From positions 1 through 55,885 of the forward strand of contig JAJEJD010000001.1 in the NCBI GenBank assembly GCA_022828125.1: 55,885 nucleotides of DNA. Direction: 5' to 3'. The stretch is from a bacterium. Its GTDB lineage: Bacteria > UBA8248. Position numbers and translations under genes: made by a program. This document shows, one piece after another, positions 27,821-55,826 of the stretch; positions within the stretch are counted from its first letter, which is position 1, and each line of letters opens with the position of its first letter. Under the pieces are notes generated by a model. That model saw nothing but the letters and a program-made list of their open reading frames with translations. It made no database searches and had not been told where the DNA came from.

Positions 27821-27881
27821 CCGCGGTACATAGACGGAAAGACGAACTGCGGGCGTGGGCTCGCGAGAGGAGACGGATGAA

Positions 27882-28502
27882 ATGAGTGATGAAGCGAGGC
27901 TGCGCGCGGCGGCGGACAAGCTGGAGATGATGGAGGTCTCCATGTTCTCGCACGACTGCCGGGATTCGGGCGACTGGGATGGCCTGCTGGATTGTTTCCA
28001 CCCGGATGCGGACATCACCACCTCGTGGTTCATGGGCAACGCGCATGCGTTCATCACCGAATCGCGTGACATGATGCAGGGCCACCACCCCGACGACACC
28101 CAGAAACACATCGCGGGCAACGTGCGTGTCCGCGTAAGCGGCGAGCGCGGCGTCTGCGAGTATTACCTCACCCTCCACCAGAGGCGGACGATGGACGGGT
28201 ATGATTTCGACTTCTCGACCTGGAGCAGCGTGGTGGATCTGTTCGAGCGCAGGGACGGGCGGTGGCGCGTCATCAAGCGCACGATGATTTACGAGAAAGA
28301 CAGGATGGACCCCCACAAGCCGGGCGAGGTGCCGGCGTCCTACTTCGAGGCGATGGACCTGACGCCTTATCCTAAGGCGCTTCGCTACCATTGCTGGCGC
28401 AACGAGAAATTCAGCGGCAGCCCGCCGTCTGCGAATCTGGTGATGGAAGGAACCGAAAAGTCGCGGGCGATCCGGGAAGAAGCGCGCCAGTGGGTGCCAT
28501 GA
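27882..28502 (+). CDS. SnoaL-like (NTF2-fold) protein
   Basis: 206 aa. The pattern LRAAADKLEMMEVSMFSHDCRDSGDWDGLLDCFHPDADI, then GRWRVIKRTMIYEKDRMDP, is that of SnoaL-like polyketide cyclase/dehydratase-type NTF2 domains (SnoaL_4 group), often found beside aromatic or ring-opening catabolic genes. The ~60-residue C-terminal tail beyond the usual domain has no motif I know. ATG 27882 lies about nine bases after AGAGGAG. It starts 62 bases after the TPP enzyme and may share its transcript. Enzymatic activity cannot be claimed; the family also includes binding proteins. Confidence 0.8.
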   Translation: MSDEARLRAAADKLEMMEVSMFSHDCRDSGDWDGLLDCFHPDADITTSWFMGNAHAFITESRDMMQGHHPDDTQKHIAGNVRVRVSGERGVCEYYLTLHQRRTMDGYDFDFSTWSSVVDLFERRDGRWRVIKRTMIYEKDRMDPHKPGEVPASYFEAMDLTPYPKALRYHCWRNEKFSGSPPSANLVMEGTEKSRAIREEARQWVP

Positions 28503-28587
28503 GCGAAGCGAAATTTTCTTGATGATGGGATGGGCGTCGGGTATATATTTCCGAAACCCGAAATGACAATGCCGGAAAGGAGAACGA

Positions 28588-29763
28588 ATGAATTTCAAAG
28601 TTTATGGGCCGTATGACATTGGGGTCGATGAAGGCTATTCCAATTGGATCGATAAAAAAGACACGGATAGTTTGTGGGAAAAAATCCGCCGGAATGGTGT
28701 CAAGGATGAATATGATTTGCCGGATGCTTGCGGCGTTTATATCTTTGCGATGAACGGCGGAGAAGGAAAGAAAGGAACGGCTGGAAAGACGTTGCCATGG
28801 TATGTAGGAAAAGCTGAAAGGCAGAGTTTTAATAAAGAATGTTTTACCTTTAAGAATCTATACTACTTCAACAGTGTTTTGATCAACGAATATAGAGGCT
28901 ACGGAGTTCCAGTTTTGTTTTTGTTGGCACGGGTTGGGGAGAATGGCAAGCCTTCTCCCCCAGCGAAAGATGAACAATACCTGGGAGTGAGATTAGTCGA
29001 AGAAATGTTTATTCAAATGGCGCTTTCGGCAAACAGTGATCTTTTGAATAAAGCCATGACGAAAATGATCAAGGAAACTTCCATACAAGGTTTGTTGAAT
29101 ACGAGAAAATATAAATCGGAGAGCGTAGACAAACTCAAAGGCGTATTCGGAATAAAGCATGAACCCGCCGAGGTAACTGGATACGGAGCAGTGAAAATTA
29201 GGTACGATGTCCATGGTCCGCATGACGTTCCGATGAAAAATCCCAACAAGGTCAAAGTAAGGACTATCGGTGCCGAACAAGTCGAAGAGATGTGGAGTAA
29301 TGTTCTGAGGAAGGAGCAAAAGTCGTTGAGCACCACTTGTGGCGTATATGTGATCGGAATGCGGAATAAAAGCAACACGACCCCTTGGTATGTCGGTACG
29401 GCTCATCATAGGAGTTTTGAAGAAATATGTTTCAAGTCGGATATTGAAAAATTGAAGAAGATTATCAATAGTGGAAAAGGAACACCGGTTATCTACTTTC
29501 TGCCGCGATGGGCAAGAAAGAAGGGAGATTTTGAACCGGCGAAACCGATGAAAAATAAACCGGCCGACATGGATTACGTCAAGAGGTTTTTGCTTGAGTA
29601 TGGCGTTCAAGCCAACGATGATATTTTGTTCGAGGATTCACCCGAAACGGAAATTTTACGGGATCTGTATGTGGAAGGTTTTGTGAAATCCAAGGCGGTG
29701 AAATCCAAGACGGGAAAACCGTCCAAGGCAGTGAGTGAATTGAAGTTGCGCCTTGGGCTATAG
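28588..29763 (+). CDS. Protein with tandem GIY-YIG-like domains
   Basis: 391 aa built of two repeats of about 195 residues. Repeat 1: VYGPYD (5-10), CGVYIF (48-53), PWYVGKA (70-76). Repeat 2: VHGPHD (208-213), CGVYVI (251-256), PWYVGTA (266-272). GVY...YVG matches the GIY-YIG nuclease core. The candidate metal-binding Glu (E138/E139 in LVEEMFIQMAL) is replaced by Lys-Arg (332-333) in repeat 2, so only repeat 1 may be catalytic. The gene is clearly more AT-rich than its neighbours and uses many AAA/GAA codons, suggesting recent acquisition. GGAGAACGA precedes the ATG. Nuclease activity is inference. Confidence 0.7.
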   Translation: MNFKVYGPYDIGVDEGYSNWIDKKDTDSLWEKIRRNGVKDEYDLPDACGVYIFAMNGGEGKKGTAGKTLPWYVGKAERQSFNKECFTFKNLYYFNSVLINEYRGYGVPVLFLLARVGENGKPSPPAKDEQYLGVRLVEEMFIQMALSANSDLLNKAMTKMIKETSIQGLLNTRKYKSESVDKLKGVFGIKHEPAEVTGYGAVKIRYDVHGPHDVPMKNPNKVKVRTIGAEQVEEMWSNVLRKEQKSLSTTCGVYVIGMRNKSNTTPWYVGTAHHRSFEEICFKSDIEKLKKIINSGKGTPVIYFLPRWARKKGDFEPAKPMKNKPADMDYVKRFLLEYGVQANDDILFEDSPETEILRDLYVEGFVKSKAVKSKTGKPSKAVSELKLRLGL

Positions 29764-29785
29764 CGACGTCAACTGTTTCTCCCCA

Positions 29786-30940
29786 TCACATCAACTCCAG
29801 ATAAATCCGCTTCATATCCTCAGCATCTGCGGGTACGGGGTTCGTCGCCACCGTGGTGCTGGCGGCCGCCTCGTGCGCCATGCGATCGAGATACTCCCTC
29901 TCTGCGCCGAAGGCCGCGAGCGATTCCGGTATGTCGATGTCGTCCGCCAGGGCGCGGACGCGCTCGACCGCAAGTTCCGCGTCCTGCCTATCGTCCGATT
30001 CTTCGTCGGGGTTCGCGAGAAGCGGGGCCAGCCGGGCGTAGGTCTCGCGCATGGCGGGCAGGTTGAAGCGCATCACGGGGGCCAGGAGTATTCCGTTGGT
30101 GGTGCCGTGGTGTCCGCCGAAGAAGTTGAAGACCGGGTGCGTGAGTCCGTGCACGATGCCGAGTCCGGTGTTCGTGAAAGAAGCGCCCGCGAGGCAGGCC
30201 GCGAGCGCCAGGGGGTCGGCGGCGTCGGGGTCCGCTGGATCGGCGACGAAGCGCCGCGCGTTCTGTCCGATCAGGCCGATTGCCTGGAAGCAGAGCGCCT
30301 GCGACCAGGGGTTCGCGCGTGGGGAGCCGAGCGATTCCACCGCGTGGGTCAGGGCGTCCATGAGCGCGCCCGCGGCGAAGAATTTTGGCAGCGTGGCGAG
30401 GAGGGAGGAATCCACCACCGCCACGTCGGCGTATAGCGCATCTGAGTGGATGCTCGATTTGGTGCCGCGCTCGATGTCGGTGATGATGGAGGCGCGCGTC
30501 ACCTCGCTGCCCGTGCCCGCCGTGGTCGGGGCCGTGATGAAGGGCGGAATGGATTTTTCCACCATGTCCGCGCCGTAGTAATCGCTAATCTTCCCGCCGT
30601 TCGCGAGGAGCGCCCCCATCGCCTTGGCGGTGTCGATGGCGCTGCCCCCGCCCACGGCGATGATTCCGGAACATTCGTTCGCCTCATAAAACGCCTGCGC
30701 GCGCGTGATGCTCGGGTCCGAAGGGTTGGGCTCCACGTCTTCATACAGGTGGTATGGGACGCCCGCCGCATCAAGGCCCTCCGTGACGGAGTCCAGCACG
30801 CCGGCCGCAGAAAGCCCCGGGTCCGCGAGCAGCATGGGGCGCGTCATGTTCAGATGCTTCGCTTCGGCGCCGATGGAAGCGGCCTCGCCTCTGCCGAAGC
30901 GCACGCGCGGCACGGCGGACATGCGGAAAGGATCGATCAT
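29786..30940 (-). CDS. Iron-containing alcohol dehydrogenase
   Basis: 384 aa, group III (Fe-ADH) family. The NAD(P)-binding GGGSAIDTAKA lies near residues 96-106. Metal ligands fit ALMDALTHAVES and GLGIVHGLTHPVFNFFGGHHGTTNG (the repeated His residues). The EPNPSDPSI phrase before it is typical. It would reduce an aldehyde or ketone or oxidise an alcohol or hydroxy acid; maleylacetate reductases belong to the same fold, which is notable given ring-cleavage genes in this window. GGGGGAG precedes the ATG. It is the last gene of a minus-strand run starting at 34733. Confidence 0.93.
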   Translation of the reverse strand: MIDPFRMSAVPRVRFGRGEAASIGAEAKHLNMTRPMLLADPGLSAAGVLDSVTEGLDAAGVPYHLYEDVEPNPSDPSITRAQAFYEANECSGIIAVGGGSAIDTAKAMGALLANGGKISDYYGADMVEKSIPPFITAPTTAGTGSEVTRASIITDIERGTKSSIHSDALYADVAVVDSSLLATLPKFFAAGALMDALTHAVESLGSPRANPWSQALCFQAIGLIGQNARRFVADPADPDAADPLALAACLAGASFTNTGLGIVHGLTHPVFNFFGGHHGTTNGILLAPVMRFNLPAMRETYARLAPLLANPDEESDDRQDAELAVERVRALADDIDIPESLAAFGAEREYLDRMAHEAAASTTVATNPVPADAEDMKRIYLELM

Positions 30941-43180: not shown

Positions 43181-43624
43181 TTAGGTGTGTCTTTGGGTGG
43201 ATGGGCAGATTTCATGATTCGGATCCCACCATAGAATCTTCATGATGTTCGCTTCCTGTATACACCAGACTCGATTCTTGCCGGTCAGCCGAAAGGACAT
43301 GAGTTCATCGGTGTCATCTTTGTGGATCTTTTCGAGACGGTCCCGCGCAGGTTTCACGATATTAACAATCTGGATCGGGTGACTCCCGCTTTGTATGATT
43401 TGGCTCCAGTTTTTCTTTTCGAATTCCTGGAGTTTCTCCATCACGTTCTTGTAAAGGTTCGGATCCGACAGATTCGTCCACGCCCAATCGCCGCCGCGGT
43501 CGCTTTCGCTGAATCTCCATGTGAGAGGAGCGCCGTGGACGTTAGGTTGCTGCGCTTTTGACTGCTTTTTGGGTTGAGGTTCTTGAGCGAGTTTTGATTT
43601 CTTTCGACTTGATTTCCTGGCCAA
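43181..43624 (-). CDS. Putative toxin of a Panacea-type toxin-antitoxin pair
   Basis: 147 aa. A basic, Lys/Gln-rich N-terminal ~28 residues precedes a small domain with SFRLTGKNRVWCIQEANIMKILWWDPNHEICPS. That ending (FRLxGKxRxWxI...WWDPxHxxxP) resembles a small toxin-like family found beside Panacea antitoxins; I recognise the pattern but cannot name its biochemical activity. The gene starts seven bases after the antitoxin gene and ends near 43181. Its AT content and the Lys-rich N-terminus differ from the surrounding catabolic genes, consistent with a mobile cargo gene. Confidence 0.6.
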   Translation of the reverse strand: MARKSSRKKSKLAQEPQPKKQSKAQQPNVHGAPLTWRFSESDRGGDWAWTNLSDPNLYKNVMEKLQEFEKKNWSQIIQSGSHPIQIVNIVKPARDRLEKIHKDDTDELMSFRLTGKNRVWCIQEANIMKILWWDPNHEICPSTQRHT

Positions 43625-43630
43625 CGGAAT

Positions 43631-44071
43631 TCAGAGGCTGGAGTAGTATTCAGCCATGGATGCGTTTGAAATACGCGCCTTTCCGCGTTGTCCGCTGAGA
43701 AGCCCTGATTCTTCCCGAGCATCCCGCCAGGGGGCCTCCATATGGGTCAGCGCACTTAACCAAAGAGATGTCTTGTCTCCATAAAAATCAAGAACGGCAT
43801 CGACGGTTTCACGTTGCACGGCATCCAATTTTTCCGGGTCGCCACCCGGAATACCTGACAAGAGGTATTGTCCCCGGTGCGCCTTGTAGAGATTTCGAAT
43901 GACCGGACCGTTCGCCCATGCCTCGATGCGGTCGCGGAAGAGTGATTTATCATCCCAGACCAGAGACCAGGCCTGGGCGTAATAAACCAGCTTCTGGAGT
44001 TTCATGGCCGGCATCTTGCCCTGCTTTCGCAGGATGTAAGCGGCCACGTCGATGGCGCGGACAGTCATCAT
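43631..44071 (-). CDS. Panacea (DUF4065/SocA-like) antitoxin-type protein
   Basis: 146 aa. The Panacea signature is clear: AAYILRKQGKMPAMKLQKLVYYAQAWSLVWDDKSLFRDRIEAWANGPVIRNLYKAHRG. The domain is established as a widespread antitoxin or proteolytic-adaptor module that neutralises varied toxins. Three start codons lie in a row (TTG 44074, ATG 44071, ATG 44068); AGGG stands about ten bases before 44071. The partner gene follows seven bases downstream, so they are co-transcribed with the antitoxin first, the usual order. It sits between the dienelactone hydrolase and LVIVD genes, transcribed from its own putative promoter. Confidence 0.88.
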   Translation of the reverse strand: MMTVRAIDVAAYILRKQGKMPAMKLQKLVYYAQAWSLVWDDKSLFRDRIEAWANGPVIRNLYKAHRGQYLLSGIPGGDPEKLDAVQRETVDAVLDFYGDKTSLWLSALTHMEAPWRDAREESGLLSGQRGKARISNASMAEYYSSL

Positions 44072-44182
44072 CAAAATCTATCCCTGTTTTGATTCCAGGC
44101 GCGTCAAGCAGCACTTGCGTAGATAATTCGAAATTTTTGCATGGGTCTGAACGACTGTGGATAGCTTTGCCTCGTGACAATC

Positions 44183-53951: not shown

Positions 53952-54308
53952 GTGCGCCAGGCTAACTGGTGCCAGTGCAGCCGGTGGAAGTCCGGCGGGA
54001 GGGAGAAGGCTAGCCACCACCTCCACCCCGAGTCATGGGCCGCTACCCGCGAGGGTGGGGGTTAAGCGTTGACAGGGGCGCGTGCGGGCGGGGCTAACGA
54101 GCACCGAAAGAGTTATAGTCCGGGATGTCGAGGCCTTATCCCATGGCCGAAGACAGCATCCGGCCCGCCGATATGGCAAGGGGGGCCGGAATCCCGCGGT
54201 GTCCAAGAACCCACGCACGTACGTACGCACTGCACCGGGACCTGGGAGGTCTCCATGTCATCCCGCCGTCGTGGCGGGGCCGCAGAGGGAAGGAGGAATC
54301 CGTAGCCG
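53952..54308 (+). ncRNA. Group II intron ribozyme, domains I to IV 5' part
   Basis: About 357 bases of GC-rich structured RNA before the ORF, with motifs typical of a group II ribozyme: CCGGTGGAAGTCCGGCGGGA and GGGAGAAGGCTAGCCACCACC near the 5' end, and the GAGCACCGAAAGAGTTATAGTCC stretch (around 54099-54122) leading into EBS1. The ORF begins at 54309 in the domain IV region. Confidence 0.7.
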
Positions 54309-55826
54309 ATGACGAACGGCATGGAGAAGTCAGACCCGGCCATAGTAGCCGTGAAGCCGACGAACAAGGGGACGCGAGTCCCGGCGGAGTCGGTGGAGCC
54401 AAGGGCCGGGCCCGAGGGGAATCCGGGAAGCCAAAGCACGCGCCGGACACAGGGCCGGGGGAGCGTGTCACAGGCGGCAGACCGGATACGGCAATTCGTT
54501 GTACGGGAGCCACGGGAGCGTCTGACGGCGCTCCTCCACCACGTCACGCCCGATGCGCTGCGCCGGGCGTTCTTCGAGTTGAAGAGGGACGCTGCGGCAG
54601 GCGCGGACGGGGTGACGTGGCGGATGTACGCGGAAGGGCTGGAAGGCCGACTGGCCGACCTGCACGAGCGCGTGCACTCGGGAGCGTACCGGGCGACGCC
54701 GTCACGGCGGGTGAACATCCCCAAGCCCGACGGCGGGACACGACCGCTTGGCGTCGCGGCCATCGAGGACAAGATAGTCCAGAAGACCGTGACGGAGACA
54801 ATCCTGACGCCGATTTACGAGGCGGAGTTCCTGGGGTTCAGCTACGGGTTCCGGCCCGGGCGCGGGGCGCACGACGCGCTCGACGCGCTTGCGGTCGGGA
54901 TAAAACGGCGCAAAATCAACTGGGTGGTAGACATCGACATCCGCGCATTCTTCGACACGGTATCAAGGGAATGGCTGGTGCGCTTCTGTGAGCACCGCAT
55001 CGGGGACAAGCGGGTTATCAGGCTCATCATCAAGTGGTTGAACGCCGGCGTCATGGAGGCTGGAGAGTGGCGGGACGACCTGCGGGGGACGCCGCAAGGC
55101 TCGGTGGCATCGCCGATGCTGGCGAACGTCTACCTGCACTATGTCCTCGACTTGTGGTTCCAGAAGAAGTGGCGCAGCCGTGAGGTCGAAGGCGACGCAA
55201 TCATCGTTCGCTACGCCGACGACTTCGTGGTGGGCTTCCAGCACAAGCAGGACGCGGAGAGGTTCCTGAACGCCGTGAAGGAGCGGTTCAGAAGCTTCGG
55301 ACTGGAGATACACCCCGACAAGACCCGGCTTATCGAGTTCGGGCGGTATGCCAGGAAGAATCGGAAACGATGTGGACTGGGCAGACCGGAGACCTTCGAC
55401 TTCCTGGGCTTCACGCACTACTGCACGGAGACCAGGGAACAAGGCAAATTCCAGTTGGGGCGCAAGCCGGTGGCGAAGCGGATGGCTCGCACCTTAAAAC
55501 GGATAAAGGAGGCGCTGCGCAGACGGATGCACGAGAGTGTCAGGGACACGGCGCAATGGCTGGGAATGGTGGTTGACGGATGGCTGAACTACTTCGCCGT
55601 TCCAACGGCCTACCGGTATCTGGAACGCTTTGTCACCCGTCTGAAGCGAATGTGGCTCCTTGTCCTGAGGCGAAGGTCGCAGAAGGATCACTCCACATGG
55701 GCCGACATCGCGCGATTAACAGCGCAACACTGGCCCAGGCTGGAAATCAGACATCCGTGGCCGGATCGACGATTTGCCGTCAGCGCTGGCGTGGGCGCAA
55801 CCCAAGGGAGGAGCCGGATGCCTTAG
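54309..55826 (+). CDS. Group II intron-encoded reverse transcriptase/maturase
   Basis: 505 aa. It has an extended N-terminus with an RIRQFVVREP stretch, then RT motifs: NIPKPDGGTRPLGV, YGFRPGRGAHDAL, DIDIRAFFDTV, GTPQGSVASPMLANVYLHYVLD and the catalytic YADD at residues 302-305. The maturase (X) domain reads WLNYFAVPTAYRYLERF. After it comes HPWPDRRFAV; no HNH endonuclease is present, as expected for ORFs of its class. It aids splicing and retrohoming of the intron. Starts at ATG 54309 (ATG 54321 also possible); GGAGG is 12-15 bases upstream. Its TAG stop (55824-55826) lies inside domain V, so the last residues are coded by ribozyme sequence. Confidence 0.93.
   Translation: MTNGMEKSDPAIVAVKPTNKGTRVPAESVEPRAGPEGNPGSQSTRRTQGRGSVSQAADRIRQFVVREPRERLTALLHHVTPDALRRAFFELKRDAAAGADGVTWRMYAEGLEGRLADLHERVHSGAYRATPSRRVNIPKPDGGTRPLGVAAIEDKIVQKTVTETILTPIYEAEFLGFSYGFRPGRGAHDALDALAVGIKRRKINWVVDIDIRAFFDTVSREWLVRFCEHRIGDKRVIRLIIKWLNAGVMEAGEWRDDLRGTPQGSVASPMLANVYLHYVLDLWFQKKWRSREVEGDAIIVRYADDFVVGFQHKQDAERFLNAVKERFRSFGLEIHPDKTRLIEFGRYARKNRKRCGLGRPETFDFLGFTHYCTETREQGKFQLGRKPVAKRMARTLKRIKEALRRRMHESVRDTAQWLGMVVDGWLNYFAVPTAYRYLERFVTRLKRMWLLVLRRRSQKDHSTWADIARLTAQHWPRLEIRHPWPDRRFAVSAGVGATQGRSRMP

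Follow-up and report, generated by a model that had tools for sequence, protein, structure and literature searches.

A tandem GIY-YIG-like protein with one degenerate repeat, encoded by a single-gene insert between catabolic genes

Why does an AT-rich gene encoding two GIY-YIG-like repeats stand among the catabolic genes of a bacterium, and is one of its repeats inactive? The gene lies in the window, i.e., the whole stretch of 55,885 nucleotides that was analyzed, and its host is named a Nitrospinota bacterium in this study. The open reading frame has exactly the position and the length given by a first-pass annotation made from the sequence. The gene and its parts are listed below; residue numbers of the family follow repeat 1, and all conservation counts refer to 31 intact single-domain members.

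28588..29763, + strand: tandem GIY-YIG-like gene, 391 amino acids
28588..29163, + strand: repeat 1 (residues 1-192), with 10 of 10 near-invariant family residues
29200..29760, + strand: repeat 2 (residues 205-391), in which the equivalents of F53, E84, E138, and N154 are gone

Each repeat opens with (Y/H)GP(Y/H)D, and the GVY and WYVG motifs are found at the places where they had been claimed, at residues 49-51 and 71-74 of repeat 1 and at residues 252-254 and 267-270 of repeat 2. The claimed two-repeat structure is borne out, as the halves align over ~190 residues with 25-27% identity, and the BLASTP E value of 5e-18 between them places the duplication far above chance. A recent duplication within the lineage was considered and rejected, since repeat 1 shares 33-34% identity with single-domain members and only 26-27% with repeat 2, and the repeats are not joined in the family tree. 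The reported AT-richness is also evident: the GC content falls to a trough of ~0.42 at the tandem gene versus ~0.62-0.67 on either side, and the GC at the three codon positions is 0.46/0.35/0.48 versus about 0.65/0.45/0.83 in every confident neighbor.

The segment that carries the gene is bounded by two conserved genes and contains, besides the tandem gene, a candidate promoter and a candidate ribosome-binding site, with no other gene.

28505..29787, no strand assigned: inserted segment of 1,283 bp, GC 0.44, missing at the same site in five same-genus genomes
27855..28502, + strand: left flank, SnoaL-like protein gene, conserved in siblings
29786..30940, - strand: right flank, iron-containing alcohol dehydrogenase gene, convergent; also the right neighbor of the site in siblings
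28542-28549, + strand: candidate -10 promoter element of the gene's own (tatatatt), read from the sequence, inside the insert
28576-28582, + strand: candidate ribosome-binding site (aaaggag), read from the sequence, inside the insert

In the five same-genus genomes (G001, G002, G003, G005, and G006), the site between the flanking genes is empty, and the SnoaL-like and iron alcohol dehydrogenase genes are convergent and 14-20 bp apart. The window is collinear with G003 at 92-93% identity up to position 28504 and again from position 29788, and the same gap is seen against G002. The empty site in the sibling genomes supports the proposed recent acquisition, and the isolation of the gene among catabolic genes corresponds to a single-gene insert between the two flanking genes. 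Transposon-like ends were rejected for this insert because no inverted repeats and no target-site repeats or duplication were found. Elsewhere in the window, a lower-GC pair of 147-amino-acid genes at 43181-44074 (- strand), the upstream one of which matches the SocA_Panacea antitoxin (PF13274, E 6e-16), is likely a toxin-antitoxin pair; it is present in G003 and missing at that site in G002. A match to group II intron RNA (RF02005) and, after it, an RT/maturase open reading frame are located at 53987-55826 (+ strand), both downstream of tRNA-Ser.

Scans of the whole protein and of either half against Pfam, NCBIfam, PADLOC, and PHROGs gave no match; judged by their sequences, both repeats belong to one unnamed family that has no entry in these four collections. 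The other members are sporadic single-domain proteins of ~180 amino acids. Two of them (L006 and L005, labeled Nitrospinota) come from the same genus, lie at other genomic places, and are ~33% identical to repeat 1; further members occur in alphaproteobacterial, acidobacterial, Myxococcota, and Lindowbacteria genomes, on two viral contigs (L012 and L071), and on one plasmid. Roughly 1% of the genomes in most groups searched carry the family, and 15 of 168 genomes carry it in the phylum reached from genome G1255, whose genome content suggests Fibrobacterota. A second tandem protein was not found among ~1,650 whole genomes, the GTDB contigs (in a pattern-based, non-exhaustive scan), IMG/VR, phages, and plasmids. 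Broken copies with an in-frame stop or a frame shift were observed at L132 7890-8276 and L131 7582-8090, which points to turnover of family genes.

The GIY-YIG core that had been claimed for the protein is supported by the motifs and by profile comparison, but not by PF01541, the Pfam GIY-YIG model, which at E ≤ 1 matched 0 of 30 family rows, nor by a Foldseek search. One member matches DUF123, which we take to be the COG1833-type GIY-YIG family, at an E value of only 0.17. When the family was compared by hhalign with UvrC-type GIY-YIG domains taken from genomes, it gave P = 1.6e-4 with a probability of 50% and a score of 28.5, which none of 150 column shuffles reached (11.0 ± 2.4); the probability with a deeper profile was 56%. 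Against a broader GIY-YIG set, the local score was reached by 1 of 150 shuffles and the global score by 0 of 150. The alignment pairs GxY, YVG, and VExxLI (which contains E138) with their UvrC equivalents, the last with LLENNLI, and a search of all PDB sequences with the 30-row profile returned only UvrC GIY-YIG domains, at E values of about 0.15.

Modeling of each half had been proposed as a check of the fold. The AlphaFold2 model of repeat 1, obtained with 11 sequences (pLDDT 77, pTM 0.74), shows the GIY-YIG order of elements (β-β-α-β-α); the strands that bear GVY and YVG are adjacent, and E138 lies within the helix following the third strand. The model of repeat 2 is of low confidence and has the same order of helices and strands. 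The row from a plasmid record was left out of the alignments for structure prediction. The modeling thus agrees with a GIY-YIG fold in the order of its elements, whereas Foldseek against the PDB and viral models gave no significant match (1yd3 at E 0.26). The kinship is drawn from the motifs and the profile comparison and not from the fold search; we regard it, remote and nearest to UvrC as it would be, as quite probable. The UvrC GIY-YIG domain (1YCZ/1YD3; PF01541) shares with the family the GxY and YVG half-motifs, the register of E138 with the catalytic Glu, and the order of strands and helices. On the other hand, the family falls below every HMMER cutoff, its domain of ~180 amino acids has an extra N-terminal strand and helix, the helix Arg appears to be replaced by Glu, and the window protein is a tandem fusion with one degenerate copy.

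The positions on which the two repeats can be compared are as follows.

28738..28740, + strand: Y51 of GVY in repeat 1, conserved in 31/31; counterpart in repeat 2, Y254, at 29347-29349
28801..28803, + strand: Y72 of YVG in repeat 1, conserved in 31/31; counterpart in repeat 2, Y268, at 29389-29391
28837..28839, + strand: E84 in repeat 1, conserved in 30/31, with Arg in the remaining member; in repeat 2, I280, at 29425-29427
28999..29001, + strand: E138 in repeat 1, conserved in 31/31; profile-aligned with the UvrC catalytic Glu (LLENNLI)
29581..29583, + strand: K332 in repeat 2, which occupies the E138 position
29047..29049, + strand: N154 in repeat 1, conserved in 30/31; in repeat 2, D350, at 29635-29637

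Six residues (G49, Y51, P70, Y72, G74, and E138) are present in all 31 single-domain members, and four more (F53, F81, E84, and N154) in 30 of them. Repeat 1 possesses all ten, and repeat 2 possesses six, with I256, I280, K332, and D350 replacing F53, E84, E138, and N154. Compared with these four losses, no intact single-domain member lacks more than two of the ten. Both tyrosines are present in both repeats. Most of the conserved polar residues, the invariant Glu among them, are gone from repeat 2, but the tyrosines and the glycine/proline/tryptophan framework are retained. Its E279 sits one residue ahead of I280 and could partly stand in for E84. The first-pass annotation had opposed a metal-binding Glu pair, E138/E139, to K332/R333. 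The positions are right, and the degeneracy of one repeat at the putative active site is supported, but the pair is not a conserved unit: only E138 is invariant, E139 varies among the 31 relatives (T, S, K, Q, D, and others), and the second conserved acid is E84.

Alternatively, repeat 2 or even the entire gene could be decaying into a pseudogene, in line with the end branch of repeat 2 (1.58), which is among the three longest in the family tree, and with the existence of broken family members (L132 and L131). However, the 391-amino-acid frame is intact despite the deep divergence of the repeats, the gene has its own candidate ribosome-binding site, and repeat 2 retains the G, W, GxY, PxYVG, F, G, and N149-type residues; we regard decay as very improbable.

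In GIY-YIG nucleases, the helix that follows YIG bears an Arg, which in the UvrC sequences compared stands in an L-x-x-R context. A conserved Arg on the first helix is absent among the 31 family members. The column of the family that reads F-x-x-E has Glu in 30 of 31 members and Arg in L027, and we infer that it corresponds to the Arg column of GIY-YIG proteins, a region in which hhalign is not confident. Among the basic candidates in the core, position 90 is the best conserved (Lys in 26/31), but repeat 1 has Asn there, with Lys at 89; the column before G106, a candidate Arg substitute as in Hpy188I, is Lys or Arg in only 20/31. As the canonical Arg is missing from the family, repeat 1, too, may be something other than an orthodox nuclease.

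Alternatively, the family may have the GIY-YIG fold, with Glu in place of the helix Arg, and no nuclease activity. Its ligand would then be DNA, a nucleotide, or a metal, it would serve restriction systems in regulation, in sensing, or as a partner for specificity, and the tandem protein would be a double binder. The missing Arg and the Glu of F-x-x-E argue for this, as do the small size of the members, which have no extra domains, and the occurrence of one as the third gene of a restriction-modification (R-M) operon with a nuclease of its own (L119). Against it stand both tyrosines and E138, whose conservation in 31/31 is the pattern expected of catalysis, and the homologues of Hpy188I, an example of GIY-YIG enzymes in which the Arg has changed position (PMC2630997). 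On balance, we consider a purely binding role somewhat unlikely. The R.Hpy188I family of Type II GIY-YIG restriction enzymes, which has an unusual active site (PMC2630997), resembles the present family in departing from the consensus, including the displaced Arg. The present family is set apart, by description, in having Glu at the place of the Arg with both tyrosines kept, and the window gene has no adjoining methyltransferase of its own; none of the searches run matched the R.Hpy188I family.

The defense role that had been suggested finds support in relatives that lie in restriction operons, but not in the window copy, which has catabolic neighbors and no defense gene next to it; against the PADLOC models, the tandem protein matched 0 families at E ≤ 10. 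In L119, the member lies directly beside a Type III Mod-Res pair. A Type IIG enzyme and an AAA_13 protein (PADLOC class PDC-S06) adjoin the members in L131 and L042, AbiH-like and TmtA-like proteins the member in L127, and PDC-S56 that in L130. In L122, HsdM is divergent from the member and PDC-M62A is in line with it, and in L133 a Type I HsdR is one gene away, with a TniQ-type transposition gene nearby. The neighbors in all of these loci match PADLOC models. Restriction and other defense neighbors in the phylum reached from G1255 are mostly in the same orientation as the member; such placement is seen at several loci there, but ordinary or unrecognized neighbors flank the member at about half of that phylum's loci. 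By raw locus tally, the family is mobile and repeatedly, not exclusively, near defense genes.

Several of these loci have further features. In L119 (2826-9729), Mod, Res, and the single-domain member, 44 bp downstream, form a compact cluster on one strand throughout. L133 (1280-13551), in which the member adjoins a Type I R-M set and a gene with a TniQ domain is found about 4 kb off, is possibly a Tn7-like element with defense cargo. A subgroup of members (L123, L125, L126, L128, L129, and L132) repeatedly adjoins genes whose protein products carry a motif like FTDPRDGQxYKTIKIGxQVWMAENL. An HNH partner beside L037, suspected by eye, was rejected for want of Pfam support.

Two copies in Myxococcota are located on the opposite strand inside tail-like gene clusters (recognized by eye; Pfam gave no support). 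This placement in Myxococcus, together with the members on viral contigs and on a plasmid and the mobility as single genes, would suit a gene for anti-restriction or a phage/plasmid accessory (moron) better than a host defense gene. Yet the co-oriented placement in R-M and other defense clusters at several loci fits defense at least as well, and 50,697 phage records contained no family match; we consider an anti-restriction or accessory gene improbable.

The reading that we prefer, with a probability of roughly 0.55, is that the tandem protein is an accessory defense nuclease-like protein, with one potentially catalytic half and one scaffold half, from a horizontally moving family of remote GIY-YIG relatives. 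Repeat 1 would be the metal-dependent phosphodiesterase/nuclease half, using Y51, Y72, and E138, and E84 and N149/N154 would share the pocket with these residues. Repeat 2 would be a pseudo-enzyme with its fold intact, offering a second surface for contact with DNA or a partner. GIY-YIG restriction enzymes such as Eco29kI and Hpy188I form dimers, which the single chain may imitate as a pseudo-dimer; with one active site, it would be expected to nick one strand. Its biological role would be that of an accessory in defense against foreign DNA. CMoRE/PD-T4-3, a single-component GIY-YIG Type IV defense (PMC12923530), is likewise a stand-alone single gene for a two-domain protein with one GIY-YIG half. 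However, the second domain of CMoRE is an unrelated modification sensor, whereas that of the window protein is a degenerate copy of the first, and the catalytic Arg is conserved in CMoRE.

More tentatively, the sequences may represent a new family of defense-associated nucleases with Glu at the place of the canonical GIY-YIG Arg, and the tandem protein a natural single-chain pseudo-dimer with one active site removed, possibly a nickase or a nuclease with a built-in noncatalytic recognition half. The family, which is unannotated, travels as single genes, recurs inside R-M operons, and spans several phyla, and its active-site pattern departs from those of the GIY-YIG enzymes compared. The tandem copy is a natural experiment: within a single protein, one repeat carries the complete signature of the family and the other lacks the putative catalytic acids, which makes the roles of the residues and the pairing of the halves directly testable.
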